Shown in pieces: positions 5,928-33,973 of a DNA stretch of 35,065 nucleotides. The first letter of the stretch is position 1. Each line of letters begins with the position of its first letter. The position numbers were made by a program, and so were the translations under genes. The stretch is taken from assembly GCA_030018915.1 (NCBI GenBank), contig JASEHE010000007.1:1-35065 (forward strand), in the 5' to 3' direction. The notes below the pieces were generated by a model. The model was not told the DNA's origin and ran no database searches. It saw nothing but the letters and a program-made list of their open reading frames with translations. Source of the DNA: Verrucomicrobiota bacterium. GTDB taxonomy: Bacteria; Verrucomicrobiota; Kiritimatiellia; UBA8416; SLMC01.

Positions 5928-6038
5928 TTGAGAACCCCCCGTTCGTTCTTGTCGCCGACTCAGCCGCGCGCGGCGCGCGGTCAAGCTCCATTGGCTACGG
6001 CCAATCGCGCGGATACTGCCGCAGGAATGGTGGCTAAG

Positions 6039-15418: not shown

Positions 15419-15437
15419 TTTGGCACGAACAATGCGG
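15419..15437 (+). promoter_or_regulatory. candidate sigma-54 (-24/-12) promoter
   Basis: TTTGGCACG-AACA-ATGCGG: full TTGGCACG -24 box, GG-N10-GC spacing, TGC at -12; upstream of the coiled-coil gene at 15613. Confidence 0.65.
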
Positions 15438-15612: not shown

Positions 15613-16245
15613 ATGAAAAACAACCTGTCAGATATCGGTCGTTTGGTGGTTTGCGTCTTGTTCTGCGTTTGGTTCTCATGTTCGGTTATGGGCGCGAGTT
15701 CCGAAAGCAAGCCAGCGACGCGGAAGCCGGTCTCGGCGCCGGCCGGCGCCGAGACGGACAAGACGGAAGAGGAGAAAAGAAGGGCGGAATTGACCGCAAA
15801 AGCGGACGCGGCCGGCGCCCAAATTGCCGCCTTGAACAAAGAGGAAGAGGAGTGCTCCGGCAAGCTCCGCGATGTCATGAAAGCCCTGACCTGGTTTACC
15901 ACCGGTGATTCCACTTCCATCACGAACAAAGGAATCGTGGCGATGCAAGAAAGGCTGAAGGAACTTCAGGCGGAGACCAAGAAGATCAAGGCGGAGTTGA
16001 AGCCTCTGATCGAAGCTTTGCCGGAATTTCAGGGACTGAGCCTGGCATCAAAGGACGGATACGCAAAGCTGGCCGAGCTGCGCGAGAAGCGAATGGCGCT
16101 CACGAAAGAGAAAGACAGCGCGGTTGCGACGTTGTGGCAGATGAACCGAAGGGAACAGCTCGATCGTGAGAATGCCGAGAAGAATAGGGCCGCGGCAGAG
16201 TCCGGCGCCGGTCAATCCATTACGAATCGGACGGAATCGCGTTGA
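15613..16245 (+). CDS. small exported coiled-coil protein, unknown function
   Basis: Start MKNNLSDIGRLVVCVLFCVWFSCSVMGASSES (signal peptide, with a Cys near the end of the hydrophobic stretch); remainder charged heptad sequence. ORF list extends to 15574, but the Met at 15613 places the signal peptide correctly. Confidence 0.7.
   Translation: MKNNLSDIGRLVVCVLFCVWFSCSVMGASSESKPATRKPVSAPAGAETDKTEEEKRRAELTAKADAAGAQIAALNKEEEECSGKLRDVMKALTWFTTGDSTSITNKGIVAMQERLKELQAETKKIKAELKPLIEALPEFQGLSLASKDGYAKLAELREKRMALTKEKDSAVATLWQMNRREQLDRENAEKNRAAAESGAGQSITNRTESR
15730..15755. repeat. 26-bp perfect palindrome GTCTCGGCGCCGGCCGGCGCCGAGAC in the early coding region
   Basis: Read directly; encodes SAPAGAET. 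Confidence 0.9.
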
Positions 16246-16287
16246 TCAGAATGACAATCTGAGAGATTCTGGCAAGGGGGCCAAAGC

Positions 16288-19200
16288 ATGCAAACGGACG
16301 GAAGACGTTTTCGCCCGGTTGTCGCCGGACTGGTTCTTCTTGTTGCCGCGACATGGAGCTTCGCGTTTCGGGGAGAGGACCAGGCGCCGGAGCCGGGCGC
16401 ATGGGTCGCGCCTGCGCCAGCGGCCTTTGTGCGGCCGCCCGATGCAAAGGTCCGCGCCGCGGCGGCTGTCCCCGGGTTGAGGGTGCGGTGGGATGAGCGG
16501 ACCGGCCGACCGTTGTCGGTTGTCATGTCTGACGTTGCGGCAACCGCGAAAGCACTGGCGGTCAAGCGATTGAAGGTTGCCGGCGCTGGTGATTTCCGGA
16601 AGGACGCGATTGCCGTATTGGACAACGTGGGCAAGCTCTATGACGTGAAAGACGCGGAACGGGAATTCGCTCCCATGACCGACGATCTGGACGTTCACGG
16701 GTTCCGCCATGTGAGGGTTGAGCAGCGCCACGCCGGGCTCCCAGTGGTGGGCGGCGCGATGGTGGCACACTTCGATCGAGCCGGCAAGCCGTTTGCCGTG
16801 AACGGGTCGTACGTGCCCGGTCTCGCGGTGGATACGATTGCCGCGCTGACTGCGGAACAGGCCACGGCAGCCGCTCAGGCGGACCTCCAGGCAATGGGGA
16901 AGCCCGAAGGAACGACATTCGGCAAGACGCGCCTCGTGATTTTCGCGCGGACGAAGATTCCGGCGCTCGCGCATGAACTCATCCTGGTTTACGATGACGC
17001 GGCAGCCGGTCCAGGGAGATGGCGATATTGGGTGGACGCCAGGAACGGGAATATTCTCTCGCGGTACAACGATATTCAGACGGCGAGCGCGAGTATTTTC
17101 GGTCGTCTTCTGCCGGGGGAAGGCGGCGCCGGCGTGACGATTTCGGCGGAGCTGAACGCGTCCGTTTACAGCATGGAGAACTTCATCCGCATGTGGACGG
17201 TCCGCAACGACGGTGGAGGGCGCGTCGGCGAGATGTACAACGACGCCATTGACGCGGGGGCGATCGCGTTTCGCCATACAAACAACTGGACAATTCCGGC
17301 GCCGCGCCATGAAGACCGGGCCGAGGTTTCCGCCGCCAATAATTTCAACGCAATCCAGACGTACTATTCCACCGTGCATGGCCGGAGCAGCTTCGACGGC
17401 TTCAACGCGCTGGCTTTGGCGCGGGCGCACGTTGGCGTCAATCTTGTCAACGCCTACTGGAGTCCTACCGAACAGAACTTCTTTTTCGGCGACGGCGACG
17501 GGACGACGGCGAATTCGCTCTGCGTACTGGACGTCTGCGCGCACGAGATCCAGCATGCGGTGACGGAGCACAGCGCCGGCCTTATTTATCAGAACGAGTC
17601 CGGCGCATTGAACGAGTCGTTTTCCGATATATTCGGCGCGCTGGTCGAGTTCAATACGCAGCCGGACAATCGCGCGGCTTATCCGAACATCACGCCTGGA
17701 ACGGCCGACTGGCTGATGGGGGAGGACTGCTGGCTTACCTCGACTGCGCTGAGGGACCTCAGGAACCCGAAGAACGCGGCGACGGTGGGCGCGGGCAACG
17801 AAATGCCCACGTACTATCAAGGCGACTACTGGCACTTCGGCGCGGATGACAACGGGGGCGTGCACCGGAACATGAGCGTGCAGTGTTTCATGTTCTATCT
17901 CTTGTGCGAGGGAGGCTCCGGGAACAACGAAGGGCGGGACTACCACGTGCCGGGCATCGGCATCCTGGACGGCCGTCTGTTGGCCTATCTTACGCTGACT
18001 CAGTATATGACGGCGGACACCGACTATCGCATGGCGCGAGAGGCATGGATGCTTGCCGCGCTGGAAATGGACGCGGCTGGCGGCTATACGACTCACTACT
18101 ACGTGAGCGCCTGGGCGGCCTGGCGCGCCGTGGGAATCGGGAGTCCCGACTTGATCGAGCCGTATGCCGATTTCTATTCGGCCGGCCGGGTCGGCGTTGG
18201 GCCATTCAATCCGACGAACAAGACCTACACGATTTTCAACCCTTATTCGGTGGCCCATACATGGGCGATCGCCGCCGATTATTCGTGGGTTGTCATTTCT
18301 CCTTCGAACGTGACGTTGCCGGCTTTGTCGCGCACTAATGTGGTGGTATCCATCACGTCATTGGCCGCGACTCTGCCAGAGGGCGTTCACACCAACGTCG
18401 CGCGATTCGGGAATACGACCATGCCCGCGAAAAGCGCAACGCGAAACGTGATTCTCATGGCGCTCGACAACTATCATTGTGTTTCCACGAACTTCAGTTG
18501 GGTTGGCGACGCGAACGTATGCCGGAATGTGGTCCTGGACGACGACGGTGTCAGCGAGGCCCTTGCCGCGCCGTTCCCGATCAACTACTACTTCCGCTCG
18601 TTCACCAATTTTTATGTCTCGGCAAATGGGATGATCGGGTTCTACAACGAAGGCTTGGATGAGTGGAACAACGCGGATATTCCCGCGAACAGCCTGCCCA
18701 ACGGCATGCTGTGTCCGTTTTGGGACGATCTGGACCCCTCAGTGACTCCGGGCATGATTCGCTGGGGCGTGACCGGGACGGAGGCGCAGAGCAACCGTCA
18801 GTTGGTCGTGTCGTGGACTGATGTTGCGCACGCATCCGATAAAAACGCGCGGTTTTCGTTTCAAGTTGTCATCCCGGAGAGGAGTGGTGTCAACCCCAGC
18901 GATTTCGTTTATCAGTACCGCGAGGTGGGCCAGAAGCATGAAACGCTCGGCATGGGAATGAGCGCGACGGTGGGGTTGGAGGAGCCATATGGGGTGCTGG
19001 GGGCGAAGTACTCGCGCAACGGAAGCGCGTGGCTGGCGAACAACCAGGCCCTGCTGTTCACTCAGCTTCCACCTCCCGACTCGGCGAGGCCGACTGGCGC
19101 GATCAGCGTCTGGAATTGGACCACGTCGAGCGTGACGTTCGAGTTGCGATTCAACGAGATTGTGACGAATTTCACGTCGTCCGACGTGGTCATGGGCGTT

Positions 19201-22170
19201 TCTCCCCGGTCGGCGCCGTACACTGCGGTGATCGTCAGGGGAGGCGGCGAGCGATACCTGGTTGACGTAACAGGAATTACGGGATTAGGAACTCTTGTTA
19301 TCCGTCTGCCGGAGAATGTCGTTTTCGATCTTGCCGGCAATGGGAATGTGGCCATTGCGCCGTTCTTGTTCGTGATGCCGACGCTGCAAACGGCTTTTGA
19401 GGACACCATGGAGGAAGGAGTCGGTTTGTGGACACGTACGGACAAGAATTACGAACAGGTTCGTTCCGACGCGTGGGAGTACGGCGCGCCGACCTATGCG
19501 CTCGGGCCGCCTGGGGCCTACAGTGGAACAAACTGCTGGGGAACGGTGCTGGACGGGCCGTGTGACAACACTCCGGATTGCGTGACGAAGGCATGGTTGA
19601 CGAGTCAGCCCATTGCCGTGGGCGAGAACCCGGTGCTTAGTTATGCGGTGTGGCACGATCTTACGAACGACACGGACATTTTTGTGCCGCCTCCTGAGCA
19701 TCCGTGGATAAACTGGTATGGCCGGGTGGAAGTGGAGAATGGGCACGGATGGTTGCCGGTCGCCACGTACAAGGGCCCGTCAGGCGGTTGGTTGCGGGAA
19801 GAGCTATGGCTGGACAACGACCAATTCGGCAATCGGACGATTAAAGTGCGTTTTGTGCTTTGGCAATGCGCCGGCCCTGGATTGTATGTGGATGACGTGT
19901 CCGTTTTCAGTCGGAAGGCGCCGGGCTTGTGCGTGGCGCAGGTGAACACGGCGCCGACCCCGATTTCGCCGATCGATACGGTCAATATGGATGTCCGGCT
20001 GTACAACAGCGGCACAGTGACGTATTCGAACGTGTCCGGCTTGGTTTCCAGTCTGAGCCCCGGCGCGACCGTGAACAGCAATTCCGTTCCAGTGTCCTAT
20101 GGGACCATGCTGCCGGGACAGCTTGCCTGGAGTTCGGGGTTTGTTCAAATCGCAATGGGCGGCATAGGCGCGTTGACCGGACCGCGGGTTGCCATGACAC
20201 ATGACGCTTTGAGCGGCCTCTCATCCTGGTCGGATGCAATCTACCTGACGGTTTCTGGAATGCCGCCGAGTGAGAGCAGCAATATCATTGCCGTCGGATG
20301 TTCCGAGGGGGTCAAGAACTGGATGGGCGCTTTTCTCCAGGGTGATGGAGGGCAAGGCTCTTCGATCTTCCAGTTGATCGGCGCCGGCCCGGATGGAACG
20401 CGCAATCCTCCTCAGTTCGACGGTATGCCTTCCGGAGACGACCGCTTCCTCCATGGTCAGGGCGCTGCCTCCGCTGTCGGCCTTTTTGGGGAGGGGCCCG
20501 GCGCGCCTGCAGACTTGGGGCAATTCTTCAAGCTTTTCAAGCACAACCTGTCCACTAACGATCGCGTCTATGTTCGGGCGTGGGACAGCTATTCGTTCCG
20601 GGATTCCGTGGCCTACGGCGATTCCGATCTCTGTTCGATAACGAACTTGCCGGCGCAAACCAACGATTTTGCGCAGTGGATCGTGAATACTGTCATAGAC
20701 CCGAACAGCGACTACAATGGCGACTCAATACCCGACGCCTGGGATATTGAGCATGGCCTGGATCCGCGCAGACCGGTCGGCGAGCCTCTGACGAGCGAAT
20801 GGATTTGGATGTCGCATGTCGGAAAACGAGGCGCGGCGGACGGCCAATTCACCACGCCGGCGAGAGTTGCGGTGAAAGACCCGTTCCTGTTTGTTTTGGA
20901 CACGGGCAACGCCAGGATTCAGATATTCAATCGGAACGATCTATCCTTTGTTCGATCGTTCGGAAGCGCCGGCACAAACGATTCGCAATTCTCGTTTCCG
21001 GGCGGACTGGCGCTGGATCCGCGGCCTGGCATTGATCGGATTGCCGTGGCCGACACGCACAACAACAGAATTCAAATGTTCTCGTTCGATCCGGTCACAA
21101 CGAACCTTACATTCCTCTGGAAAGTCGGACAGCCCGGTCCAATGGGAGTAGGGGCCAACAACGATCAGTTTATGAACCCTGAGGGTGTGGCCATCGGCTA
21201 TGGAGGCAACGTTTATGTTGCCGACACGGGCAATGGGGCGCACGTGTTGGGGTGTCGAATTCAGGTCTACGACTCTTCCGGCGCCTATTTGAGGACCATC
21301 GGCCCCGGGCACCCAACCGGGAGCGCCGGGGGTTTCATGTGGCCGCGCGGGGTGTGCGTGACGACCAATGAAACGGTGATTGTCGCCGACACCGGCAACC
21401 ACCGCATCCAGGCATTCAACCAGTTTGGCGTATTCCAGTGGCAGGCGGGGACAATCGGCAACGGCAATCTCCAGTTCAACTCGCCGCGCGGCGTCCAAGT
21501 GGGGCGATTGGGCCGCATCTATGTGGCGGATACCCTCAACAACCGGGTGGGGGTGCTTGACGCTTCCCGGAATTACCTTGCCGCATTTGGAACGTCCGGT
21601 TTTGCGGTGGGTCAACTGAATCATCCCTATGATGTCTGGCCTGCCGCAGACACGAACCTTGCCTACGTTGCCGACACGTTCAACAACAGAATCCAGGCGT
21701 TTTCCGTCATTATTGACGCGGATGGCGACGGCATGAACGATTTGTGGGAGGATTTGCACGGCTTGAACGCGACCGACCCGAACGACGCCTATGGGGACCT
21801 GGACGGCGACGGGCTCGGCAATCTGGCGGAGTACCTCCTGGGCTTCAATCCGGAAAGCATTGACACGGACGGCGACGGTCAGAGCGACGGCGCCGAGATC
21901 GGAATCCCGAATGATCCGCTCTCAATTCCGCTGCCGCCAGATCAGGTTGCCCTTGTGAAACTAGGGTCCGGACAGATCGTGTTCCTGTGGCGGGTATATA
22001 TCGGCGCGCGATACGCCGTGGAGCGCGGCGCTGACTTGCGCAATCCGGCGGGCTGGACCCGGCCGGCCGGGATCATTACGGCTTCGTTCGATGGAATCTA
22101 TGTTTGGGTGGACGACAATCCGCCGAGCTCGGGTCCCTGCTATTATCGGGTGGTGAGGTTTGTGCCGTGA
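16288..22170 (+). CDS. giant exported M4 (thermolysin-family) metalloprotease with NHL beta-propeller and Ca-binding repeats
   Basis: Signal peptide; FTP/PepSY-like propeptide region; HEIQH (17542-17556) followed by GALNESFSDIFG; six NHL-type repeats (VADTxNxRIQxF); DADGDGMNDLWEDLHGLNATDPNDAYGDLDGDGLGNLAEYLLG repeats; C-terminus CYYRVVRFVP. Confidence 0.92.
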   Translation: MQTDGRRFRPVVAGLVLLVAATWSFAFRGEDQAPEPGAWVAPAPAAFVRPPDAKVRAAAAVPGLRVRWDERTGRPLSVVMSDVAATAKALAVKRLKVAGAGDFRKDAIAVLDNVGKLYDVKDAEREFAPMTDDLDVHGFRHVRVEQRHAGLPVVGGAMVAHFDRAGKPFAVNGSYVPGLAVDTIAALTAEQATAAAQADLQAMGKPEGTTFGKTRLVIFARTKIPALAHELILVYDDAAAGPGRWRYWVDARNGNILSRYNDIQTASASIFGRLLPGEGGAGVTISAELNASVYSMENFIRMWTVRNDGGGRVGEMYNDAIDAGAIAFRHTNNWTIPAPRHEDRAEVSAANNFNAIQTYYSTVHGRSSFDGFNALALARAHVGVNLVNAYWSPTEQNFFFGDGDGTTANSLCVLDVCAHEIQHAVTEHSAGLIYQNESGALNESFSDIFGALVEFNTQPDNRAAYPNITPGTADWLMGEDCWLTSTALRDLRNPKNAATVGAGNEMPTYYQGDYWHFGADDNGGVHRNMSVQCFMFYLLCEGGSGNNEGRDYHVPGIGILDGRLLAYLTLTQYMTADTDYRMAREAWMLAALEMDAAGGYTTHYYVSAWAAWRAVGIGSPDLIEPYADFYSAGRVGVGPFNPTNKTYTIFNPYSVAHTWAIAADYSWVVISPSNVTLPALSRTNVVVSITSLAATLPEGVHTNVARFGNTTMPAKSATRNVILMALDNYHCVSTNFSWVGDANVCRNVVLDDDGVSEALAAPFPINYYFRSFTNFYVSANGMIGFYNEGLDEWNNADIPANSLPNGMLCPFWDDLDPSVTPGMIRWGVTGTEAQSNRQLVVSWTDVAHASDKNARFSFQVVIPERSGVNPSDFVYQYREVGQKHETLGMGMSATVGLEEPYGVLGAKYSRNGSAWLANNQALLFTQLPPPDSARPTGAISVWNWTTSSVTFELRFNEIVTNFTSSDVVMGVSPRSAPYTAVIVRGGGERYLVDVTGITGLGTLVIRLPENVVFDLAGNGNVAIAPFLFVMPTLQTAFEDTMEEGVGLWTRTDKNYEQVRSDAWEYGAPTYALGPPGAYSGTNCWGTVLDGPCDNTPDCVTKAWLTSQPIAVGENPVLSYAVWHDLTNDTDIFVPPPEHPWINWYGRVEVENGHGWLPVATYKGPSGGWLREELWLDNDQFGNRTIKVRFVLWQCAGPGLYVDDVSVFSRKAPGLCVAQVNTAPTPISPIDTVNMDVRLYNSGTVTYSNVSGLVSSLSPGATVNSNSVPVSYGTMLPGQLAWSSGFVQIAMGGIGALTGPRVAMTHDALSGLSSWSDAIYLTVSGMPPSESSNIIAVGCSEGVKNWMGAFLQGDGGQGSSIFQLIGAGPDGTRNPPQFDGMPSGDDRFLHGQGAASAVGLFGEGPGAPADLGQFFKLFKHNLSTNDRVYVRAWDSYSFRDSVAYGDSDLCSITNLPAQTNDFAQWIVNTVIDPNSDYNGDSIPDAWDIEHGLDPRRPVGEPLTSEWIWMSHVGKRGAADGQFTTPARVAVKDPFLFVLDTGNARIQIFNRNDLSFVRSFGSAGTNDSQFSFPGGLALDPRPGIDRIAVADTHNNRIQMFSFDPVTTNLTFLWKVGQPGPMGVGANNDQFMNPEGVAIGYGGNVYVADTGNGAHVLGCRIQVYDSSGAYLRTIGPGHPTGSAGGFMWPRGVCVTTNETVIVADTGNHRIQAFNQFGVFQWQAGTIGNGNLQFNSPRGVQVGRLGRIYVADTLNNRVGVLDASRNYLAAFGTSGFAVGQLNHPYDVWPAADTNLAYVADTFNNRIQAFSVIIDADGDGMNDLWEDLHGLNATDPNDAYGDLDGDGLGNLAEYLLGFNPESIDTDGDGQSDGAEIGIPNDPLSIPLPPDQVALVKLGSGQIVFLWRVYIGARYAVERGADLRNPAGWTRPAGIITASFDGIYVWVDDNPPSSGPCYYRVVRFVP
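20845..21710 (+). other. six NHL repeats (predicted six-bladed beta-propeller) in the M4 protein
   Basis: Six successive units ending FVLDTGNARIQIF, IAVADTHNNRIQMF, VYVADTGN..CRIQVY, VIVADTGNHRIQAF, IYVADTLNNRVGVL, AYVADTFNNRIQAF. Confidence 0.8.
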
Positions 22171-22171
22171 A

Positions 22172-22786
22172 ATGAAGAATCGAAGCGCCAACGCCAAGTT
22201 GCGCGGTCTCCTGGCGCCGTTTGCGTCCGCCTGGCGGGCGCATCATGGCCCTAAAAGCGCGTATTTCGCGCGAGAGCGTGAAATATGCGGGCCGGCGATT
22301 CCGGCAATCGTCATTGGGCTTGCCGTTGCCGGAGTCTTTCTTGCGCTCGCGCCTTTCCCGGCAAAGGCGGAAAAGAAGGCGGTGTCCGAGTCCGATGGCG
22401 ACATCGCCGACGCCAGGAAAGCGGAGAAAACGAGCTTGGACTCGAATCTCGCCGACATGGTGCGCAAGATTCTGGCGGTCAACAATAGATTGAAGAGCGC
22501 CCGAGATCGGGCAATCCGGAGCGACCAGGAAATAGCAATGCTGCAGAAGGCGATCACTGAGAAGCAGGCGGAACTGGAAAGAAGACTGATTCAGAAGCGC
22601 CCAGATATCGCCAAGATGACCGGCGAGCGGGACAAACTGCTCAAGGAACATGCGGCTATTGTCGAACGTCTCGCGGAAATCAATAAGGGAATGGTTCACG
22701 GTTCCAAGTCCACGGCCAGCGAGGTTGATCCCGCATGCGGGATCAACGATTCTCAGCCTGAAGACCTGAAGACAGAGAAACCGTGA
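22172..22786 (+). CDS. small exported/anchored coiled-coil protein, one copy of an ~87-aa module
   Basis: ATG immediately after the TGA of the M4 gene; hydrophobic IPAIVIGLAVAGVFLALAPF; module KTSLDSNLADMVRKILAVNNRLKSARDRAIRSDQEIAMLQKAITEKQAELERRL...LLKEHAAIVERLAEINKG. Confidence 0.65.
   Translation: MKNRSANAKLRGLLAPFASAWRAHHGPKSAYFAREREICGPAIPAIVIGLAVAGVFLALAPFPAKAEKKAVSESDGDIADARKAEKTSLDSNLADMVRKILAVNNRLKSARDRAIRSDQEIAMLQKAITEKQAELERRLIQKRPDIAKMTGERDKLLKEHAAIVERLAEINKGMVHGSKSTASEVDPACGINDSQPEDLKTEKP
22724..22747. repeat. 24-bp perfect palindrome GTTGATCCCGCATGCGGGATCAAC near the 3' end of the coiled-coil ORF
   Basis: Read directly; preceded by GTTCACGGTTC (22694-22704), identical to 15245-15255 in the intergenic repeat. 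Confidence 0.9.
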
Positions 22787-22921
22787 ACATCCGGCTTCCC
22801 GGACCGCGATGGGCGCATTGTGAGCGAAGATTGAGCGCGTAAACCGGACCGCGCGTCGGTCTATCGTTGGTGATATGAGCGTCTGATTGTCCGTCAAGGG
22901 GTTAGCGATGCTTGTGCGCAG

Positions 22922-22940
22922 TTTGGCATGTATCCTGCGT
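22922..22940 (+). promoter_or_regulatory. candidate sigma-54 (-24/-12) promoter
   Basis: TTTGGCATG-TATC-CTGCGT: GG at 22925-22926, GC at 22937-22938 (N10); upstream of the coiled-coil gene at 23017. Confidence 0.5.
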
Positions 22941-23016
22941 AGCTATAGCAGGAGTTGAAGATCAGCCATCCGTACTGAGGCGCTAACCCGGATATTTCAC
23001 ACGGGAGCGCGAAAAT

Positions 23017-23853
23017 ATGACGCAGGGGAAGCCAATTGTTCCGGCGATGCGGTTGGGGTGGTTGTTTGTGGCGCTGTTGTGCGGCGTCATGTGGCTTGGC
23101 GCTTGGAACGCCGCCTCCGACGCAGCCGAACCGGAAGCCGGGCCGGCGGAAGCAGGACCCGTTGAAGCATTGACGGCTGAAGACATCAAGGCGCTGGAAG
23201 CAGAGAAGAAGACGCTGGATGGCCGCATGAACGAAGTGGCGGCCAAGATCATGAAAGCTTATGGGCGTCTCAGCGATTTGCGCGAACTGGCGTTCAAGAC
23301 GGATGCCGAGGCGAAGGCTGCGCAAGATGAAATCGCGGAGAAGCAGACGGCCATGGAAAAAACGCTGAAGGCGAAATATCCGCGGATCGTCGAAATGGCC
23401 CGGGCAAATGAAGACGCGATCCAGGAGGCTACGGCTATTCGCCGGCGACTCTCGGAGACCCAGATGAAGCCGGCGACTGGGAAGTCCGACTCTGACGCGG
23501 CGCAAAAGGAAGCCAAGTCCGCTGAAACCCTGCCGGCCGCTGACTCCAAAGCGCAGGAAGCCGAGCGAGAGACGCTGAATGCCCGCCTGCGCGGGATCGA
23601 GGCCGAGATCAATGCGAACAGCTGGCGTCTCCGCGACTTGCGCGAACGGAATCTCAAGACGGACGTGGAATTGAAGACGCTGCGAGACGACATCGCGAGG
23701 AAACAGGCAGAGTTGGAAAAAAAGTTGAACGCGAAATATCCGGATATGGCCCGAACGAACGGGGAGAAGGATTTGCTGGTCAAGGAGCATGCGGACATTC
23801 GCAGGCTGCTCTTGGAGATCGCCGCGAAGCTGGCAGGAACTAGACAGGGGTGA
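23017..23853 (+). CDS. small exported coiled-coil protein, two tandem copies of the ~87-aa module
   Basis: Signal-like GWLFVALLCGVMWLGAWNAASDA; modules KKTLDGRMNEVAAKIMKAYGRLSDLRELAFKTDAEAKAAQDEIAEKQTAMEKTLKAKYP... and RETLNARLRGIEAEINANSWRLRDLRERNLKTDVELKTLRDDIARKQAELEKKLNAKYP.... Confidence 0.7.
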   Translation: MTQGKPIVPAMRLGWLFVALLCGVMWLGAWNAASDAAEPEAGPAEAGPVEALTAEDIKALEAEKKTLDGRMNEVAAKIMKAYGRLSDLRELAFKTDAEAKAAQDEIAEKQTAMEKTLKAKYPRIVEMARANEDAIQEATAIRRRLSETQMKPATGKSDSDAAQKEAKSAETLPAADSKAQEAERETLNARLRGIEAEINANSWRLRDLRERNLKTDVELKTLRDDIARKQAELEKKLNAKYPDMARTNGEKDLLVKEHADIRRLLLEIAAKLAGTRQG

Positions 23854-23860
23854 TTCACGC

Positions 23861-26800
23861 ATGAAGCGACAAAACAGAACGACAAAGAAGCAATTGTGGC
23901 TGTTGGCGGCGATGGCGGCTTTGTGCGGCGCGCTGCCGTCAACCGCGCCGGCGTACGATCTCTATATCGGGCCGATACCGGACGGTGGCGCCCGGGGAAT
24001 CATTATGCAGCCGGTCGTGACGGCGACGTCCACGATCATCACTACGACTGCTGTCCAAGTGACGGTAGCGGCGCAAGGCGCCAATGGATATACTTTTGAC
24101 CACTGGGTGGTTATGGACTATGGGACGGGTATGGGCCTGAATAGCACTACATCGAACCCCGCCTATCTGCGGGGACCGGCAAGCAGCGGCAATGTATTTG
24201 TGGATGCCTGTTTCAGACCGGAGCACCGCGTCACTCTTGCCGTAAGCGGAGATGGCAGCACGACGCCGGCGCCTGGTGTCTACGATTACACGAACGGTCA
24301 GGTAGTGGCATTCATGGCGGCGCGGACGGGAAATAATTACTTTCACTACTGGACGATTGACGCCGTATTCTACAGCCAGAATGAATCAATCAGTATTACA
24401 GTGACCAACGACTTTGCCCTAACCGCTGTTTTCAAGGTGGAGAACCCCGACGACTTTGACGGTGACAATGACGGCATGCCTGACTCATGGGAGATACGAT
24501 ACGGGCTGAATCCGGCAATCTTCGGGGCCTACGATGACCCCGATAATGACGGGCTGCCCAACCTTCTCGAATACCATTTTTCAACGACTCTTGTGCACTA
24601 TGTGTCGAGCCCGATCCATGCGGACAGCGATGGCGACGGCATGGACGACGGATACGAATACTATCACATCGGCATCCCGGGCGCGCGGGGCGTCGTCGGG
24701 CTGGCGAGCAACATGCTGGCTATTGTGCGCGCTGGCGGTGAATACGGACCGAACGGCAATCCGGATGCGGACTACATCTGGAACACGTTGACCGGCTATG
24801 AAACGGGCATCGGACTCAGCAATATAAAGGAGTACAACGGGCCGGACCTGGTGGCGCCCGGAACGTGGCCGCCGGTGGTTGTGCCCAACGTGACAATGCT
24901 CGTCAATCGCTATGAGCCGAGTCCGTCCGATTCCGGCGATCAAAGCTATTCGGATACGACCGATTCGGAGGACGACGGTTTCGACGACGGCTACGAGTAT
25001 TCGTGGGACATCTGGCAAGGCGGTCATGAAGGCGCGCAAGTGGGCGATCCGCTCGGGCACCTTGTGCCCTACCGGTTTGGAATGGCGGCGTTGCCGTCCT
25101 CGGTTGTGATTGGGGACTGGAATCTAGACGCCACGCAGGATGTTGCTGTCGCCAATTTCGGGCAAGACAACGTCACCATATTGTTCGGCATCGGGCGCGG
25201 CCGGTTCGGCGGGCCGGCGCTCACCAACACCTTGCCTGTCGGCGCCGGGCCCTGCGCCCTGGTGAGAAGCGATATCAACGGAGACGGCTTCATGGACTTG
25301 GTGACCGCAAATCGCAACACGAACAGCATCTCCATACTCTACGGACTGGGGGACGGCAGATTCCTCAGCGCCGTGAACTACACCGTTGGAACCTACGTGG
25401 CGGGCGACAATGCGTCGTGCGTGGCCGCGGCGGATTTCAACGGGGGCGGGGTTGATATTGCCGTTGCTCACCAGGGCAACGACTGCGTCTACATACTCAG
25501 CGCTCCGGCTTTCACGGTGACTCAGACGATCCCGCTCGGCGCCGGCGCGCGGCCCTCATACATCGCGACGGGAGCGATATGGGGGGGGGCTGACCTGGTG
25601 ACGGCCAACTGGGGCGCCAATACCGTTTCTGTCCTGCGGAACAGCGGGGGGGTGTTCTCCGTTTTCACGAATCTCGCCGCGGCCGGCCAACCGAGCTGCG
25701 CGCTTCTGGCTGACTTCACGCATGACACAATCAACGATGTCGTAGTCTCCTGTTTTGGCGGCAGGGCCGTGTACGGCTGGAAGGGACTCGGCGCCGGCGC
25801 CTTTGCCGCGCCGATCGTGACCAGCCTTGGGGGGGCATCCAGTCCGCGACATATGGCGATGGGACAATTCGAAGGTGATGTCAATTGGCCGGCGCGTAAC
25901 GACAGTCCGGACGTGGCCGTGGCCAATGAGATCTACAGCACTGCTTCAATTCTGCTGGGCAGCGCATTTGACATGTCTTTTGGCCAGGATTCCGAAGTTG
26001 CCGCGGAGCAGGGTCCGTACTGGATCGCGGCCGGCGATTTGAACGCGGACAACCTGGACGATCTGGCCGTTGTGAACCGGAACAGCGACAGCATGCAAGT
26101 GTTTTTCGGCATAGGCAACGGACGATTCGGCGCCGGCGTTTCCTACGCCGCGTCGGCGCGCATCGTTGACAGACGGTTTAATCCCGCCGTTGCGCATGCT
26201 CTGCCGCCCGACAACGGAAAGCCGGACTATGATTTCATCTACAACAAGGATACGGCGTTTGTCGGCAGCTGGCTTACGGACGAGATGGAGTATATGGCGT
26301 GGACAACGGCCGCGACCAATGTGTCGTGGGCTGGGACGAACGGGCTGCTCCGGCCCGAATTTCCGAATCGCCGCCGGTGCACGCACCCGTTCCTCTGGGA
26401 CTGCGACAAAGACTTCCTTCCGGACGGATGGGAACTGGCGTTCGGGTACGATCCGTGGGATATAAACACGGACGACAACGACCGCAACGACGGACAGGAG
26501 AACCCGGACGGCGACTGGTACGCGCTGGGCCCGGGCGGAACCAATCACAACAGCCTGTATCTCGCCATCGGCTTCGATCCGCGCACCGCCTACGGCTGTC
26601 TGAACAGGCAAGAGCTTGTAACGTCGGCAAACAACGAGGAGTTTTCCAACTATCAGGAGTTGATCGGCCCGCGAGGATTCGCGGCCATTATGCCGAACGA
26701 TCCGGACGACCGATGCACGCACCCGTTCAGAAACGACACGGACGGCGACGGTATATGGGACGGCTGGGAATGGTACGTGGGCCTGAACGCCAAGAATTCG

Positions 26801-29800
26801 AGTGACGGTCCTCTTGACCGGGACACGGGGGGAGGTGACGGCCTGACGAATTTCGAGGAGTTCCAGAGCTACTACACGTCAACCAACGTTTGGGGGAATT
26901 GGTCCATTCTGACGAATTGGGCGAATAAACTGCGGCCATGCGACCCGTTTGACCGGGATACGGATGCTGACCAGGCTCCAGATGGCTCTGAGCGCGACGC
27001 TTTCAATTTCTCCGGCGGTATGGGAGTGTTGCGCCAGATAAGCGGTGAGGATTTTTACTATACGGGCGGCGGTCTGAATCCCTGCACGGTGGATACGGAC
27101 ATGGACTACCTGCCGGACTACTGGGAGGCTTCTTTTGCGGGCGCGGTGGGCACCAATGCCGATGGGAACCTCACATGCACAAACAGCGGCATGGATGGAA
27201 CCGAGGTCGACTACTTGATGGACCCTGACCGCGACGGTTTGCGCAATTACCAGGAGTATCTTGCCGGCGCGACGTATCACTGGCAATGGTCCTACAACAA
27301 CCCGTTTCAATTAACGAACGGCTGGAGATCATTCTACCAGATTGATATGGTTCAGGGCAGATACAATCCCTGGGATTTCTTTGACGTGCGGATGTCCGCC
27401 ACTCCGGCAAGGCCCTATGGAGATGCCATGCTCGGACCTGGCGGACGCGAGCCGAAAAGGTGGGATCCTCGCTTCTGGGCGGCGCTGCGAGTTCCTCCTG
27501 TCCCCTATCGATTCATCACGGCGGGCGAACCGATGGGGCCTCCGCTGGCCATCGGGGGTGCGGTGTTGTACAGCACGTGTTTCCCCAACACTCGGGATAC
27601 GGACGGCGACGGGATGGACGACTACTTCGAAATATATCACATGATGAATCCGATCGGCGGAGTGATGTTCGATCGGGTGTTGGACAAAATACGGGGTTCC
27701 CCAGATCTTCCGCTGGGTCCACCAGGCGGCGGGGAAGACCTGGAATTCGCTCCATGGATGAACGGGTGGCACCATCTGGATTGGGATCAGGACGGGCTGC
27801 CGAATATCTATGAATCGGTTCAGCCGCTTGCGCCGGATCCGCAATTCTACCATACGGATCCGTCCCCCTATTGGTTGAGCGACATCAGCCACGTCAAGAG
27901 CTGGGCCAGCATGTACTACTGGCTGGGCCCGGAAATGGGCTCCCTGGGGTACTGGTATTGGAACCCGCTGGTGCTTATGCGTGGGCCGAACGTTCCGTTC
28001 ACGCCGCCTGCGTACTTCTTCGATTTCGAGATGCACGAGGGGTTCGATACGGACAACGACGGCATTGCCGATCGCGCCGAACTCGTGGACACAACCGCAG
28101 GACCAGGCTCCACGGACCCGCTGACCGGCGAAGACCCTATCAAGAGGCGGGCGCTTCGGCTGAACGGACAGGCGGCGGCAAGGACACAGGGCCAGGGCTA
28201 TGTGCATGATCCGTGGACTGCATTCCGGGAATTCGCCGCTGAGGTCTGGGTGCGAGCGGACAATCCCCAGGCGGGTCGAGACCAGGTTGTGGTGGAGCGG
28301 CCGGCATTGGTGCCAATTGGCAATCCGATGTCCCTGACCCCTGGTCTTCGGCTGAATTTCCGAATCGCCGTTGATTCGAACGGATGTCCGTATGTCGGAT
28401 ACCATGGCAGCGGCACGGACGCTGTTTTCGAGGAAGCCAGGGCGCCGGTCGCGCAACGTTTGATTGCCGATCAGTGGTATCATCTGGCCGGAGTGTACGA
28501 CGGCCAGGCCAACGAGTTGCGGCTCTACGTGAACGGCCGGCTTGCCGCCATGAAGCCTACCGCGGAGATTCCTCACAATGGGTGGTATGGGGGTGAGTTC
28601 GGCAATCCCGATATCCCTCAGGCCTATATCTGGTCGTTCATGCCGATCATTGTCGGCGCCTGCGAGCGGAATCCAGGGGGATGGATCGGCGGCGTTCCAA
28701 TGTCGTTTAGTCCGTGGATGTATAATCGCGGGATTCCATGTCCGTGGCCGGGCATCTATCCGGGTCATTCGCCTCCCGACTTGGGTCTGTTTTTCGCGGG
28801 CTATGTTGACGAGGTCCGAGTGTGGAACGGGCGTCGAACTCAGGCTGAGATTCGCGGAAACATGAACCGGACATTCCGCCGGGTTGATGTTATGGCGGCC
28901 AACCTGGCGGCCAGACAGAGTGGGGGCAGCGAGCTTTTGTACTGCTATGGATTTGACGATCTTCCGGACGTTGACTATGCCGGGCCGGCGCCCGAAGGGT
29001 TCAATCTGCTGACCGGCTATCCGCACGACGGCAGCTATATGTACACGCCGTGGTGGGCCACAGCGCCTGATGTTTCGATGGTGTACAACGACTACAAGTA
29101 TGTGCCCTGGCTGGAGAACGTCGCAGGGCACTTACCTCTTGATCCTCCAGCCGATACGACACTTGTGTGGAGCAATCGGTATCCGAATACTCTCAATCCG
29201 TATGTCTATGTGTACGGACACGCGACCGAAGGCTTTTTCGAGCAGCATCCGTTCTACTACTCGCCTTTGGAGCGCGACATGTTGCCGTTGCGATGGGCGG
29301 TGGCGGAAGAGGACGTTGCCATGTGGGACAAAGGCGGCGTGCCGGCGCGCGATCCGTACGACAGCGACGGCGACACGCTGCCGGACGATTGGGAAATCGC
29401 GCATGGCCTGGACCCGCTGGTTGCCACCGGCGCCGACGGCGCGGACGGCGATCCGGACGGCGACGGCCTGTCGAACATATATGAGTACCTGACCGGCAAC
29501 GATCCGCACAGCGGGGATTCCGACGGCGATTCGATCCCGGACAGGGACGAAGACTATGACGGCGACGGCCTGAGCAACAGGGCGGAACTGAATATCGGTA
29601 CCATGCCCCACCGCGTGGATACCGACGACGACGGCGTGACGGACTGGGAAGAAACGACCGGCTCGACGGATTCCAGGTACAACGCGATCCGTCCGAACAC
29701 GAGTCTGCCGCCAAGCGGAATGACGGACCCGCTTGATGCGCTCTCGCCGTTCATGCAGCGGTCAATGTATTTCAACGGAAACGCGCGCCTGATCGTGCCG

Positions 29801-32800
29801 CCGTCGAATAAGCTGATGGCGAAAGACTGGTCGCTCGAGATGTGGGTTCGCCCGATAACAAACGGCGACGGCGGCGTGTTGGTGTGCCGGTATATCACGG
29901 CGCCGGTCCCCGGAGAATTCGGCGTCAACTATGAACTCGGCCTCTCAACGAACAGCCCGGCGGGCGCCGTGCGTCCGTATGTTCAATATGTCGCCAATGA
30001 CGGCGCCACGGTTCGGGTTGACGGCACGGGACCGACGGAGGTCACCGCCCAACTGCATAGGGTGACGATCCCGCTGGATACGTGGTCTCATCTGGCGGCG
30101 ACGTACGACAGCGTTGCGTACAGGCTGTCGTTGTACGTGGACGGCGAACTGGCGGCCTATCGGACGGACGCCACGGTGACGCCGCCGACGGTCTTCGGTT
30201 ACTTCACCGATCATACCGCCGATGAAGTGACGATTGGGGCATATCGGTCAATCGGAGCGATTACCAATGCGTACGAAGGCTATATTGACGAAGTCCGAAT
30301 ATGGCGCGGGGTCAGATCGGCCGCGGATATCCAGGCTCGGTACAACGCGCCGGAGGTTGTCCCGGGCGGTTTGCGCGGCGGCGACCTCGTGGCGCTCAGG
30401 AATCGGGCATGGGTTCCGAATGAGGGCTTGAGCGCGGCCGTTATGAGCCTGCCGGAGAATCAAGCGGCGCGCGTCTTGGTCCAATTCCGCGCGGAGCCGC
30501 CGACGCAGGGCATTCTGGCGTTGGAACGGGCGGGCGCTCGAATTATGAACTATGTTTCGCGGAGCGTGCGGCTGGTTTCCGCCACGCCGGCGCAATTGCG
30601 CGCCGCGCGGGACGGCATTCGCTGGGCCGACGCGCCGGCGGCGAGCGACAAGATTTCCGCGGACCTGTGCGTGGACGGAAGCCACGCGGCCAGGAAGGTG
30701 CTGGTTCAGTTTTTCGATGACGCGCCTTTGGCCGACGCGCTGGCGGCGATTTCGAGCGTCGGCGCGAATATCGTGGGAGAACGGAAATACCTCGCCTCGA
30801 CCTACATGGTTGTCGAGGCCGACGATGCCAAGCTTGCCGCGCTGGCCGGTAGCGACGCGACAGCCTGGATTATGAGGTGCCCGAATCGGTTGCCGTTCGG
30901 CAGCCCGGCTCATGTCTGTTCCGGACCGATGGTGCAGGGCCTGAAACTGGCGCCGTTTGCCGTCGTGGGCGATGGATGGGACGGGCCGGGACGGGGGTCC
31001 GCCGATCTTCTCTATTGCTTCATGAACGTGACGCCCGATCTGCCGGAGACGGCGGCGCGGCAGGCGGTCATTGACAGCATGAAAAAGTGGGCATTTGAGG
31101 CTGCCTTGTCCTTTACCGAGACGCCCGCGCAAGGCCGGAACAATTCCATTGATATCGGATGGTACGCCGGCGATCATGGCGACGGCGATCCGTTCGATGG
31201 GCCGTTCGGCGTGCTCGCGCACGCTTTTTTACCAAACGATGTCAATCCGGAACCGATTGCGGGCGATGTTCACTTTGACGAGGATGAGACCTGGAGGGTC
31301 GGCGTGGGAGCGGGCATAAGTCTTCCGTGTGTGTCTCTGCACGAACTTGGACACTCGCTCGGGATGGATCATTCCACCGATCCTGATGCGATTATGTTCC
31401 CGTTCTACCAGGATGTGGCGGATCCTCAGTTGACACAGGACGACATTGACGGCATTCAGTCCATCTACGGTTCTCCCGTGGGGCGCGGCGTGAGCACTTC
31501 GTTCCGGTTCGACGACGGCGGAACGACGGCGGAAGATTTCGGTGAGCCGCAAGACTGGCTGAATGACTGGGCGTCCGCCGCAGTGCTGGATGGGTGCGCG
31601 TTTGCCACGAACCAGTTCGCGCCGTTGGACAAGGATTCGGACGGAGATGGCATGCCGGATTTGTGGGAGATGGCGCATGGACTGGATCCGTACGGCGCCA
31701 CGAGCCCCAATGGGGCATGGGGAGACCCGGACCGGGACGGCCTGAACAACATTTCGGAGTATTGGGCCGGCACGGACCCGATGGATTCGGACAGCGACAA
31801 TGACGGCTTTGGCGATTATGACAGCCGCAGCAGCCCGAACGCGAGGACCTGGGGCGAGATGTACGACGACGGCGACGGCATACCGGACGAGTGGGAAATG
31901 CTCTATCCGGGCCCCGCGCCGACCACGGGCAAACGGGGGCTGGACCCGGCCTACTACGACGCCCATCTCGATCCGGATGAAGACGGCTGGAGCAACTACG
32001 CGGAGTATATGGGTTCCTATCTCGATGCCACCCGGAACCTGGTTCGCAGTTCCGATCCGTTGAATCCGGCAAACTATCCGGAACCGCTCCTGACCTTGCA
32101 TGCGCGGTACCATGGCGCGCGAGGGAATATGATCGAAGACGTATTGGCGCAAGGCGCACAGATTCATATTGACTTCTATACCACTGCCGCGATGGACGGC
32201 TTCCCGGTCGGCGCGTTGAACATGACGACGGCGTCGAGCCAGACGCGCGCGCTGACGACCGGTCACCTCGTTGAGGGAACGAACTATCTATTCTGCTATC
32301 TCGATCTGGACGTGAACGGCCAATGGGATCCGATAAACGAGCCGGCCGGCATACCGACGGAACAACCGTTGATCGGGTGGGACGATTCGAACGACATCGA
32401 GATCGGGCTGACGGACAGTCAGCCGGCCCGGCCTCGTTTCGGCTGGGGCGCCGTCACGACCGCCGTGTATCGTATCGAAATAAAGCAGGGCGCGACAACC
32501 GTGTTCACTCGACTCATGAATGCGCCGCGCAACTATGTTCATGAGGGCGACTACCTGTATGCGGGCCTGTCCGCCCTGGCCAGCAACAACAACGCGTACA
32601 CCTGCCTGATCTACACGAACGCCGACTTCTATGGGCACAAAGAATGGCTGTACTATACCTACGCGATCAAGTTCGTGGAAACTCCGCCGCTGTCGCGGCC
32701 GTCGCTCTACGGGCACGATTGGACGTATCCCTATGCCAGAAACGTCATGGAGTGGACCATGGACGCGAATTCCACGAGATACAGCATGGATATTGCCGCC

Positions 32801-33973
32801 TTGACGAATGGGCCCATCCTTATGACCGTCGCGGATCGGCCGGCGCCCTATCGCAACCGGCACGGAAACTACGCGACCGAGATTCCGAGCGCCAATCCGG
32901 CCGGGCTCTTCTACGCCGGGGACACCTACACCCTCGGCGCAAACTGGGCCAACGGCAGGTATTGGATGCGAATTCGTTCCGGAGCGGGATCGAATCGCGT
33001 GTCAATCAACTCGGCCTGGCGCGCGTTCAACCTGGGCCTGGCGCCGCCGGCCGGCGCCGGCAAGTCCATGATAGATGGAGACGTGCGCTACTTCGGAAAG
33101 GTGAGCCGCGGATACGGCGATCCTCAGAGCAATCTCGTCATTGTCGTGCAGTCGTTTATGTCGCAAGGGTTCAGCGGAAACCCGGACGGGCAAGTTCAGA
33201 TCGTCTATGTTTGCGACCCAAACAGTCCTTCGCCGCTCAAGGGTTCCTACCGGATCATGGGGCTGCACAATGGCCGGCACTACGTCCGCGCGTTTATTGA
33301 CATGAATGCCAACAGAAAACTGGATCGCTTCGAGCCCTATGGATTCGCCAAGGATTCCGTTACGGACACCGACTATGTCCCGAGGATGGTCAACCTTTCC
33401 GGCCAAGGCGGCGTGGCGGCGACCGACATCGACATCGTCATTCGCGATCGCGACACGGACGACGATCAACTGCCGGACGGCTGGGAATGGCAGTACTTCG
33501 GCACTCTCGCCTACGGCGCGCACGACGATCCGGACAACGACTTGGCCGACAACCTGCAGGAGTACATGGACACCTTGTACGATTCCGACCCCTCGGATCC
33601 TGATACCGACGACGACGGGCTGCTCGACGGGCAGGAATTGGCGCTCGGGTTGTCAACGCATAATCCGGACACGGACAGAGATGGCGTCTCGGACGGCATC
33701 GAAGTGCTGCGGACCAAGACCGACCCGCTCGATGCGGCGGACTACCTGAACATTAACGCTGTCGAGATGCTCGCCGTGCCGTTCGATGGCGTGAGCTTCA
33801 CGCTCCGCTGGGTGGGCAAGGATGGCGTGCTGTACGGGGTCCAATACAGCGACGATCTGAGCTCGTGGCAGAGCGTTACCAACATCTGGACCGGCGCCGG
33901 AGTGCACGAGTACAGAGACCCGCAATCTCCGACGTGCCCGAAACGCTACTACCGCGTGATTGTGCCGTGGTAA
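23861..33973 (+). CDS. giant (~3370 aa) exported multi-domain protein: InlB-like repeats, seven FG-GAP repeats, two LamG-like domains, I9-like units, matrixin (M10) protease domain, many Ca-binding (TSP3-like) repeats
   Basis: Start set at MKRQNRTTKKQLWLLAAMAALCGALPSTAPA (signal peptide), 24 codons inside the listed ORF; HELGHSLGMDHS plus AIMFPFY Met-turn; repeated DTDGDGxxDxWE units; C-terminus RYYRVIVPW. Confidence 0.92.
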   Translation: MKRQNRTTKKQLWLLAAMAALCGALPSTAPAYDLYIGPIPDGGARGIIMQPVVTATSTIITTTAVQVTVAAQGANGYTFDHWVVMDYGTGMGLNSTTSNPAYLRGPASSGNVFVDACFRPEHRVTLAVSGDGSTTPAPGVYDYTNGQVVAFMAARTGNNYFHYWTIDAVFYSQNESISITVTNDFALTAVFKVENPDDFDGDNDGMPDSWEIRYGLNPAIFGAYDDPDNDGLPNLLEYHFSTTLVHYVSSPIHADSDGDGMDDGYEYYHIGIPGARGVVGLASNMLAIVRAGGEYGPNGNPDADYIWNTLTGYETGIGLSNIKEYNGPDLVAPGTWPPVVVPNVTMLVNRYEPSPSDSGDQSYSDTTDSEDDGFDDGYEYSWDIWQGGHEGAQVGDPLGHLVPYRFGMAALPSSVVIGDWNLDATQDVAVANFGQDNVTILFGIGRGRFGGPALTNTLPVGAGPCALVRSDINGDGFMDLVTANRNTNSISILYGLGDGRFLSAVNYTVGTYVAGDNASCVAAADFNGGGVDIAVAHQGNDCVYILSAPAFTVTQTIPLGAGARPSYIATGAIWGGADLVTANWGANTVSVLRNSGGVFSVFTNLAAAGQPSCALLADFTHDTINDVVVSCFGGRAVYGWKGLGAGAFAAPIVTSLGGASSPRHMAMGQFEGDVNWPARNDSPDVAVANEIYSTASILLGSAFDMSFGQDSEVAAEQGPYWIAAGDLNADNLDDLAVVNRNSDSMQVFFGIGNGRFGAGVSYAASARIVDRRFNPAVAHALPPDNGKPDYDFIYNKDTAFVGSWLTDEMEYMAWTTAATNVSWAGTNGLLRPEFPNRRRCTHPFLWDCDKDFLPDGWELAFGYDPWDINTDDNDRNDGQENPDGDWYALGPGGTNHNSLYLAIGFDPRTAYGCLNRQELVTSANNEEFSNYQELIGPRGFAAIMPNDPDDRCTHPFRNDTDGDGIWDGWEWYVGLNAKNSSDGPLDRDTGGGDGLTNFEEFQSYYTSTNVWGNWSILTNWANKLRPCDPFDRDTDADQAPDGSERDAFNFSGGMGVLRQISGEDFYYTGGGLNPCTVDTDMDYLPDYWEASFAGAVGTNADGNLTCTNSGMDGTEVDYLMDPDRDGLRNYQEYLAGATYHWQWSYNNPFQLTNGWRSFYQIDMVQGRYNPWDFFDVRMSATPARPYGDAMLGPGGREPKRWDPRFWAALRVPPVPYRFITAGEPMGPPLAIGGAVLYSTCFPNTRDTDGDGMDDYFEIYHMMNPIGGVMFDRVLDKIRGSPDLPLGPPGGGEDLEFAPWMNGWHHLDWDQDGLPNIYESVQPLAPDPQFYHTDPSPYWLSDISHVKSWASMYYWLGPEMGSLGYWYWNPLVLMRGPNVPFTPPAYFFDFEMHEGFDTDNDGIADRAELVDTTAGPGSTDPLTGEDPIKRRALRLNGQAAARTQGQGYVHDPWTAFREFAAEVWVRADNPQAGRDQVVVERPALVPIGNPMSLTPGLRLNFRIAVDSNGCPYVGYHGSGTDAVFEEARAPVAQRLIADQWYHLAGVYDGQANELRLYVNGRLAAMKPTAEIPHNGWYGGEFGNPDIPQAYIWSFMPIIVGACERNPGGWIGGVPMSFSPWMYNRGIPCPWPGIYPGHSPPDLGLFFAGYVDEVRVWNGRRTQAEIRGNMNRTFRRVDVMAANLAARQSGGSELLYCYGFDDLPDVDYAGPAPEGFNLLTGYPHDGSYMYTPWWATAPDVSMVYNDYKYVPWLENVAGHLPLDPPADTTLVWSNRYPNTLNPYVYVYGHATEGFFEQHPFYYSPLERDMLPLRWAVAEEDVAMWDKGGVPARDPYDSDGDTLPDDWEIAHGLDPLVATGADGADGDPDGDGLSNIYEYLTGNDPHSGDSDGDSIPDRDEDYDGDGLSNRAELNIGTMPHRVDTDDDGVTDWEETTGSTDSRYNAIRPNTSLPPSGMTDPLDALSPFMQRSMYFNGNARLIVPPSNKLMAKDWSLEMWVRPITNGDGGVLVCRYITAPVPGEFGVNYELGLSTNSPAGAVRPYVQYVANDGATVRVDGTGPTEVTAQLHRVTIPLDTWSHLAATYDSVAYRLSLYVDGELAAYRTDATVTPPTVFGYFTDHTADEVTIGAYRSIGAITNAYEGYIDEVRIWRGVRSAADIQARYNAPEVVPGGLRGGDLVALRNRAWVPNEGLSAAVMSLPENQAARVLVQFRAEPPTQGILALERAGARIMNYVSRSVRLVSATPAQLRAARDGIRWADAPAASDKISADLCVDGSHAARKVLVQFFDDAPLADALAAISSVGANIVGERKYLASTYMVVEADDAKLAALAGSDATAWIMRCPNRLPFGSPAHVCSGPMVQGLKLAPFAVVGDGWDGPGRGSADLLYCFMNVTPDLPETAARQAVIDSMKKWAFEAALSFTETPAQGRNNSIDIGWYAGDHGDGDPFDGPFGVLAHAFLPNDVNPEPIAGDVHFDEDETWRVGVGAGISLPCVSLHELGHSLGMDHSTDPDAIMFPFYQDVADPQLTQDDIDGIQSIYGSPVGRGVSTSFRFDDGGTTAEDFGEPQDWLNDWASAAVLDGCAFATNQFAPLDKDSDGDGMPDLWEMAHGLDPYGATSPNGAWGDPDRDGLNNISEYWAGTDPMDSDSDNDGFGDYDSRSSPNARTWGEMYDDGDGIPDEWEMLYPGPAPTTGKRGLDPAYYDAHLDPDEDGWSNYAEYMGSYLDATRNLVRSSDPLNPANYPEPLLTLHARYHGARGNMIEDVLAQGAQIHIDFYTTAAMDGFPVGALNMTTASSQTRALTTGHLVEGTNYLFCYLDLDVNGQWDPINEPAGIPTEQPLIGWDDSNDIEIGLTDSQPARPRFGWGAVTTAVYRIEIKQGATTVFTRLMNAPRNYVHEGDYLYAGLSALASNNNAYTCLIYTNADFYGHKEWLYYTYAIKFVETPPLSRPSLYGHDWTYPYARNVMEWTMDANSTRYSMDIAALTNGPILMTVADRPAPYRNRHGNYATEIPSANPAGLFYAGDTYTLGANWANGRYWMRIRSGAGSNRVSINSAWRAFNLGLAPPAGAGKSMIDGDVRYFGKVSRGYGDPQSNLVIVVQSFMSQGFSGNPDGQVQIVYVCDPNSPSPLKGSYRIMGLHNGRHYVRAFIDMNANRKLDRFEPYGFAKDSVTDTDYVPRMVNLSGQGGVAATDIDIVIRDRDTDDDQLPDGWEWQYFGTLAYGAHDDPDNDLADNLQEYMDTLYDSDPSDPDTDDDGLLDGQELALGLSTHNPDTDRDGVSDGIEVLRTKTDPLDAADYLNINAVEMLAVPFDGVSFTLRWVGKDGVLYGVQYSDDLSSWQSVTNIWTGAGVHEYRDPQSPTCPKRYYRVIVPW
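25096..26155 (+). other. seven FG-GAP/VCBS-type repeats (predicted seven-bladed propeller)
   Basis: Units starting VVIGDWN, CALVRSDIN, SCVAAADFN, SYIATGAIW, SCALLADFT, RHMAMGQFE, YWIAAGDLN with DLVxANxxxNxxSxLxG strands. Confidence 0.75.
28150..28880 (+). other. LamG-like (concanavalin-fold) domain 1
   Basis: ALRLNGQ...FAAEVWVRADN...WYHLAGVYDGQANELRLYVNGRLAAMKP...GYVDEVRVWNGRRTQAEIRGNMN. Confidence 0.75.
29763..30357 (+). other. LamG-like domain 2
   Basis: SMYFNGNARLIVPPSNKLMAKDWSLEMWVRP...WSHLAATYDSVAYRLSLYVDGELAAY...GYIDEVRIWRGVRSAADIQARYN. Confidence 0.8.
31010..31472 (+). other. matrixin-type (M10) metalloprotease catalytic domain
   Basis: HELGHSLGMDH zinc motif at 31340-31372, downstream Met-turn DAIMFPFY, terminal LTQDDIDGIQSIYG. 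Confidence 0.85.

Follow-up and report, generated by a model that had tools for sequence, protein, structure and literature searches.

Across many families of the class Kiritimatiellia, genes for giant exported proteins are directly preceded by small genes encoding exported, helical coiled-coil proteins (coils). The coil is tied to exported giants and not to any protease class, since it stays in place while the protease of the giant is M4, S8, M6, M10, or none is seen. By analogy with the chaperones of type II secretion, each coil may be a dedicated envelope escort of its giant, a reading to which a probability of about 0.5 is assigned.

The window, the stretch of DNA analyzed, is one whole contig (C187, 35,065 bp) belonging to a 2.1-Mb draft genome of a Verrucomicrobiota bacterium. 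Coil 1, or P1 (15613–16245, plus strand; 210 aa), is a small exported helical protein occupying the partner slot of giant 1 (16288–22170, plus strand; 1,960 aa), an exported thermolysin-type M4 protein by Pfam, with HEIQH at residue 419. Coil 2, or P4 (23017–23853, plus strand; 278 aa), likewise small, exported and helical, occupies the slot of giant 2 (23861–33973, plus strand; 3,370 aa), an exported matrixin (M10) by Pfam, with HELGHSLGMDH at residue 2494. The distance from coil stop to giant start is 42 nt in the former pair and 7 nt in the latter, in line with the first-pass annotation, which had placed a small signal-bearing coil within about 45 nt of both the M4 and the matrixin giant. 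A further small exported helical protein, P3 (22172–22786, plus strand; 204 aa), starts 1 nt past the stop of giant 1. Giant 2 is followed by a conserved lipoprotein (GCEW...NFSGTYRG; profile A6) of at least 296 aa, interrupted by the contig end (34178–35065, plus strand). A gene for a sigma-54-dependent activator of 809 aa (12708–15137, minus strand; Pfam Sigma54_activat 3e-60, HTH_24 2e-6) is divergent from P1, and a -24/-12 promoter-like box, TGGCACGAACAATGCG (15421–15436, plus strand), the best-scoring site of the window on either strand, is found about 180 nt 5' of P1. Elsewhere in the window (1644–5984, minus strand) a 1,446-aa protein, nearly all coiled coil with a short N-terminal domain, adjoins dnaE.

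Homology between P3 and P4 is clear (blastp 4e-20), a helical domain of about 90 aa being present in one copy in P3 and in two copies in P4. A 24-bp element located directly upstream of P4 (22991–23014, plus strand) is shared with positions 22260–22283, the two being the sole matches of the pattern search in the window, where 0 are expected. As this upstream element is common to P3 and P4, P3 is probably a tandem duplicate of P4 residing in the slot before giant 2. The third coil noticed at first pass does abut the M4 stop, but should not be regarded as a partner of the M4 giant. P1 is weakly similar to P3 and P4 in direct comparison; the profile of its group (alignment A5) and that of the coil-2 group (A4) align over the whole domain, at an hhalign probability of 76% (E 2e-5), and P1 is probably a distant homologue of P3 and P4, a profile match between coiled coils not being proof. 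By these alignments coils fall into two groups, that of P1 (A5) being the more divergent one. P1 equivalents reside 5' of giant 1 in genomes G143, G109, G082, and G179, P4 homologues 5' of giant 2 in G143, G082, G109, G004, and G016, and in the coil-giant pair of G021.

According to the AlphaFold model, P3 would form three consecutive helices (residues 74–117, 119–142, and 144–182), with block-mean pLDDT values of 86–96 across residues 81–170. Fold relatives of the coils in the PDB were not retrieved by Foldseek. Pfam and NCBIfam scans revealed neither a family covering the coils nor a chaperone family, and no OmpH match was obtained for the 14 coils scanned or for P1. Pfam matches of single coils to HAUS1, DUF4125, and crescentin look composition-driven, none being common to two of the 14 members, and were rejected. 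The small proteins had been described as members of no nameable family, and this holds true upon closer inspection: they match no generic family in Pfam or NCBIfam, including any that would be without a link to giant proteins.

A three-copy coil profile, followed by a broader one, was searched across genomes of the class. With the former, the order coil-giant-coil-giant was found in G143, G109, and G082, and a single coil-giant pair in G021; the latter added G004 and G016, with G219, G087, G007, and G113 among the weak matches. In 6 of the 21 further loci retrieved by coil profile, a small exported coil is directly 5' of an exported giant; the remaining 15 (G128 included) hold generic coiled coils or unrelated proteins, and were discarded. 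Adjacency to giants thus recurs in other genomes of the class when scored by coil-profile search, the check that had been suggested at the outset. The genome-contig scan carried out with the giant as query recovered no relatives.

A sample independent of the coils was made up of 40 loci chosen by the lipoprotein marker alone, the 5' end of the giant being visible in 22. In 19 of these 22 loci, the gene immediately 5' of the giant encodes a small exported protein of helical type, so that the partnership between coil and giant proposed earlier is strengthened as to adjacency, its function being still a matter of inference. Lipoprotein-linked giants are devoid of a coil in L198, L208, and L209 (3/22), and none was seen directly upstream of giant 1 in L185, L187, and L215; since some giants lack it, the coil is not always needed. 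In an automatic count over all loci, part of which had been selected through coil hits, a coil-like exported ORF was found directly upstream of 29/38 exported ORFs measuring 1,000 aa or more vs. 6/55 other large ORFs (Fisher 1e-10, the loci being the same and some chosen by coil hits). Coils precede 19/21 giants having the lipoprotein next and 10/17 of the remaining exported ORFs with 1,000 aa or more, 0/16 exported ORFs of 600–999 aa, and 6/39 large ORFs which are not exported. The two-giant operons of G143, G109, G082, L210, and L212 carry one coil per giant. In its fuller form the locus reads coil-giant-coil-giant-lipoprotein, and in some cases an L,D-transpeptidase or aspS comes next.

Giant 1 of the window features an FTP propeptide, the M4 domain, and C-terminal NHL repeats (Pfam), giant 2 the matrixin domain, LamG, TSP3, and FG-GAP repeats, and a C-terminal domain of the YRV type; the zinc motifs are intact in both. 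The protease class of giant 1 varies among genomes, being M4 in the window, M4 plus S8 in G109, S8 in G082 and G179, and M6 in G143, and NHL propellers are frequent in these proteins. Giant 2 is an M10 protein in the window and in G109, and no recognized protease was found in giant 2 of G082 or in the scanned part of giant 2 of G143. LamG, TSP3, FG-GAP, and InlB-type repeats are carried by giant 2 proteins. M4 and S8 giants come with prodomains of their own (FTP and fervidolysin type, respectively), and most giants end with a short C-terminal domain terminating in YRV or similar residues. In the pairing of coil and giant metalloprotease originally proposed, the giant exported protein is therefore the constant element and the metalloprotease is not, since S8, M6, and apparently protease-less giants have coils.

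The C-terminal 110 or so residues of either window giant gave no NCBIfam match, the T9SS C-terminal sorting domain included. A link of the coil to the YRV-type domain was considered, as both are missing in L208 and L209, but L198 has the domain without the coil, and L191 and L200 the coil without the domain; the link is kept as a lead only. The giants of L208 (8772–17471), L209 (8807–17002), L214 (395–8470), and L207 (2–3382) end in VPGDYDGDGRTD-type repeats, without a YRV-type domain; they reside at or near the lipoprotein, and no coil precedes the two whose 5' end is visible. The giant ORF of L128 (1112–13240) in G127 is partly N, masked stretches hiding its domains.

Coil similarity tracks giant similarity (Mantel p = 0.008; 32 pairs). 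The partial Mantel correlation given lipoprotein similarity is r = 0.23 (p = 0.0015; 22 loci), the control for kinship consisting of one protein, and the covariation of coils and giants is modest. Between L210 and L212 the first coils are 0.63 alike and the second coils 0.64, first vs. second coils 0.07. Coils change faster than giants in one family, where normalized similarity ranges from 0.19 to 0.49 for the former and from 0.68 to 0.82 for the latter.

The lipoprotein (GCEW...NFSG.Y) is located 3' of giant 2, and serves as a marker for locating such loci where coils are too divergent to be detected. Its profile (A6) matched 131/333 genomes of the class (E <= 1e-4), and, in a sample of the phylum, 42 members of the class and one outsider, the match of the outsider being partial. 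A LysM-YkuD L,D-transpeptidase was recognized by motif in 8/39 lipoprotein-bearing loci, many of which are incomplete, and aspS comes next in other clusters. AlphaFold modeled the lipoprotein with low confidence (pLDDT 50), and the model was set aside. Part of the lipoprotein matches within ORFs of 2,436–4,682 aa near the same loci (G143:C1:110147-110434, G112, G075, G079, and G085), so that lipoprotein and giants have a domain in common.

The activator consists of a helical, TPR-like N-terminal region, an AAA+ domain with GAFTGA, and a winged-helix C-terminus. It was found in the same divergent position, at 48–53% identity, in other genomes, and is divergent from a coil-giant pair in ten loci, all from one order. 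Its N-terminal profile (A3) matched 17/346 genomes of the class, 15 of them in the order of the window, and none of the sampled genomes of the phylum outside the class. Boxes of the -24/-12 type scoring at least 25.5 precede the first coil in 8/10 activator-linked loci vs. 0/15 loci with no activator in view, against a background of 0.04 sites per kb of strand. RpoN is encoded in 12/13 genomes tested, the exception being an incomplete draft. The activator is absent from most loci and the cluster is not always found with it; G002, a genome belonging to the window's family, has the activator with neither coil nor giant beside it. The pairing of two genes is thus upheld and the unit is larger than first proposed, extending to the lipoprotein, sometimes to the L,D-transpeptidase, and in one order to the divergent activator and its predicted promoter.

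The AAA+ domain with GAFTGA, the RpoN of the genome, and the -24/-12 box are the features expected of sigma-54 enhancer-binding proteins, and are shared with activators of the NtrC/NifA type; the window activator differs from the latter in having an N-terminal family of its own (A3) and a winged-helix C-terminus (HTH_24), no FIS-type domain being found among the Pfam matches. The search of genome contigs by activator alignment returned generic sigma-54 activators of other phyla, and was not useful. In G072, G127, and G015, activator relatives (L129, 17336–19717; L130, 9811–12069; L131, 3275–5770) adjoin operons with numerous pseudopilin-like (GFTLIE) genes, which suggests that control of a pseudopilin machine may be related to that of the giants. 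In L132 (2254–9105, 9403–11778, and 13197–19901; G033) a distant relative of the activator lies between two exported proteins of about 2,250 aa having near-identical C-terminal ends, with no small coil directly before the first. The RpoN match at G000:C23:2305-2778 falls within an open frame of 917 aa vs. 476–552 aa in relatives, and this frame is possibly a fusion, an unusual extension, or a wrongly long frame.

Signal types were judged by eye for 43 coils. The signal is cleavable in about 25; a lipobox is present in 11, and 7 keep an N-terminal anchor that is not cleaved. Because cleavable signals, lipoboxes, and membrane anchors are mixed, coils probably act in the envelope, not outside the cell. 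The term secreted system, which had been applied to both partners, suits the giants, which are exported; the lipobox and anchor versions of the coil argue for its staying in the envelope. The coil would work in the periplasm, either with its signal peptide alone or attached through a lipobox or through a membrane anchor at its N-terminus. There it would bind its own giant as the latter leaves Sec, maintaining it in a soluble, export-competent state until the outer membrane is crossed. The route across the outer membrane is possibly the type II-like secretin/pseudopilin machinery of these genomes, as secretins and GspG-like pseudopilins are encoded in 10/10 genomes tested, that of the window included, at sites unlinked to the coil-giant locus; secretin and GspG-type proteins also serve type IV pili. 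The downstream lipoprotein, together with the transpeptidase where present, may aid assembly at the surface, and in one order the AAA+ activator would switch the operon on from the sigma-54 promoter.

Escort, inhibitor, anchor, and scaffold had all been listed as roles of the coil. An escort or folding partner fits best, because the coil is apparently dedicated to one client, probably held in the envelope, encoded so as to be made just before the client, present in one slot per client, and indifferent to enzyme class. The main rival is an anchor or scaffold: the coil would remain bound to the surface-exposed giant and tether it to, or space it from, outer membrane and peptidoglycan, and lipoprotein and L,D-transpeptidase would secure the complex to the wall. 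The lipobox of about 11 coils, the lipoprotein 3' of giant 2 with a LysM-YkuD transpeptidase after it in some loci, and the long helices predicted by AlphaFold are consistent with such a role. It is nonetheless less likely than an escort, given that lipobox and anchor are both missing from most coils, that a C-terminal lysine of the Braun type was found in no more than 6/22 coils, and that the transpeptidase motif occurs in 8/39 lipoprotein-bearing loci, many of them incomplete. For the same lysine count, and as the lipobox is absent from most coils, the Braun lipoprotein was discarded as the main explanation.

The coil might also lack any physical partnership with the giant, and be a co-regulated envelope protein with a task of its own, such as relief of envelope stress while giants are produced. 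In favor of this explanation are the switch that the operon is predicted to share in one order, and the fast divergence of the coils, which is what weak sequence constraint would produce. The fact that each giant typically has a single coil slot immediately 5' of it, regardless of the activator, and a coil-giant covariation that goes beyond lipoprotein similarity speak against it, and make it improbable. Far less credible is a protease inhibitor or separate propeptide holding the protease inactive inside the cell: the zinc motifs of both window giants, each a protease, are intact, and cells producing giant proteases need protection, but the class changes from M4 to S8, M6, or M10, giants with no recognized protease keep the coil, and M4 and S8 giants bring their own prodomains. 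A broader interpretation is put forward tentatively, and has rather less than even odds: coils, lipoprotein, and the sigma-54 switch of one order may make up one functional unit, a class-wide, undescribed system for export and surface assembly of giant proteins by matched, fast-evolving helical partners unrelated to known secretion chaperones.

A partner gene which marks the giants, covaries with them, and in one order has a predicted switch in common with them offers a direct experimental handle on how PVC bacteria manage to fold proteins of 2,000–5,000 residues, carry them across two membranes, and fix them in place. Skp is a small, signal-peptide-bearing, mainly helical protein acting as a general chaperone. 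Coils resemble this protein of the OmpH family in size, signal peptide, and helical content, and differ from it in lacking an OmpH match and in being encoded one per client gene. Coils are also reminiscent of the Braun lipoprotein and its L,D-transpeptidases, being helical envelope proteins, sometimes lipoproteins, with LysM-YkuD in some clusters; they differ in that the C-terminal lysine is confined to 6/22 coils and most have no lipobox.

Giant genes of Omnitrophota and other PVC bacteria, in the parts of the reports consulted, encode very large exported multidomain proteins (PMC12057145, PMC11573180). The giants analyzed here share these features and the PVC superphylum with them; in contrast, no partner genes are described in those parts of the two reports, and the word "coiled" is absent from PMC12057145. 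The portions consulted of the open-access literature on giant proteins and genes in Kiritimatiellota, Kiritimatiellales, and PVC bacteria, and on coiled-coil partners, report giant genes and no such pairing. CpaB and LipB are chaperones exposed to the periplasm, with genes adjoining those of the type II effectors they serve; the client of CpaB is a metallopeptidase, and cpaB lies immediately downstream of cpaA (PMC4713064). Coils are like CpaB, LipB, Lif, and LipH in that the gene resides beside that of an exported client, and the product is probably held in the envelope, each of the known chaperones being needed for one client (PMC4713064). Unlike CpaB, LipB, and Lif, coils have no chaperone match in Pfam or NCBIfam; they are all-helical and encoded upstream of the client, whereas cpaB is downstream of cpaA, many are soluble or lipoproteins, and their clients are 2,000–5,000 aa long.
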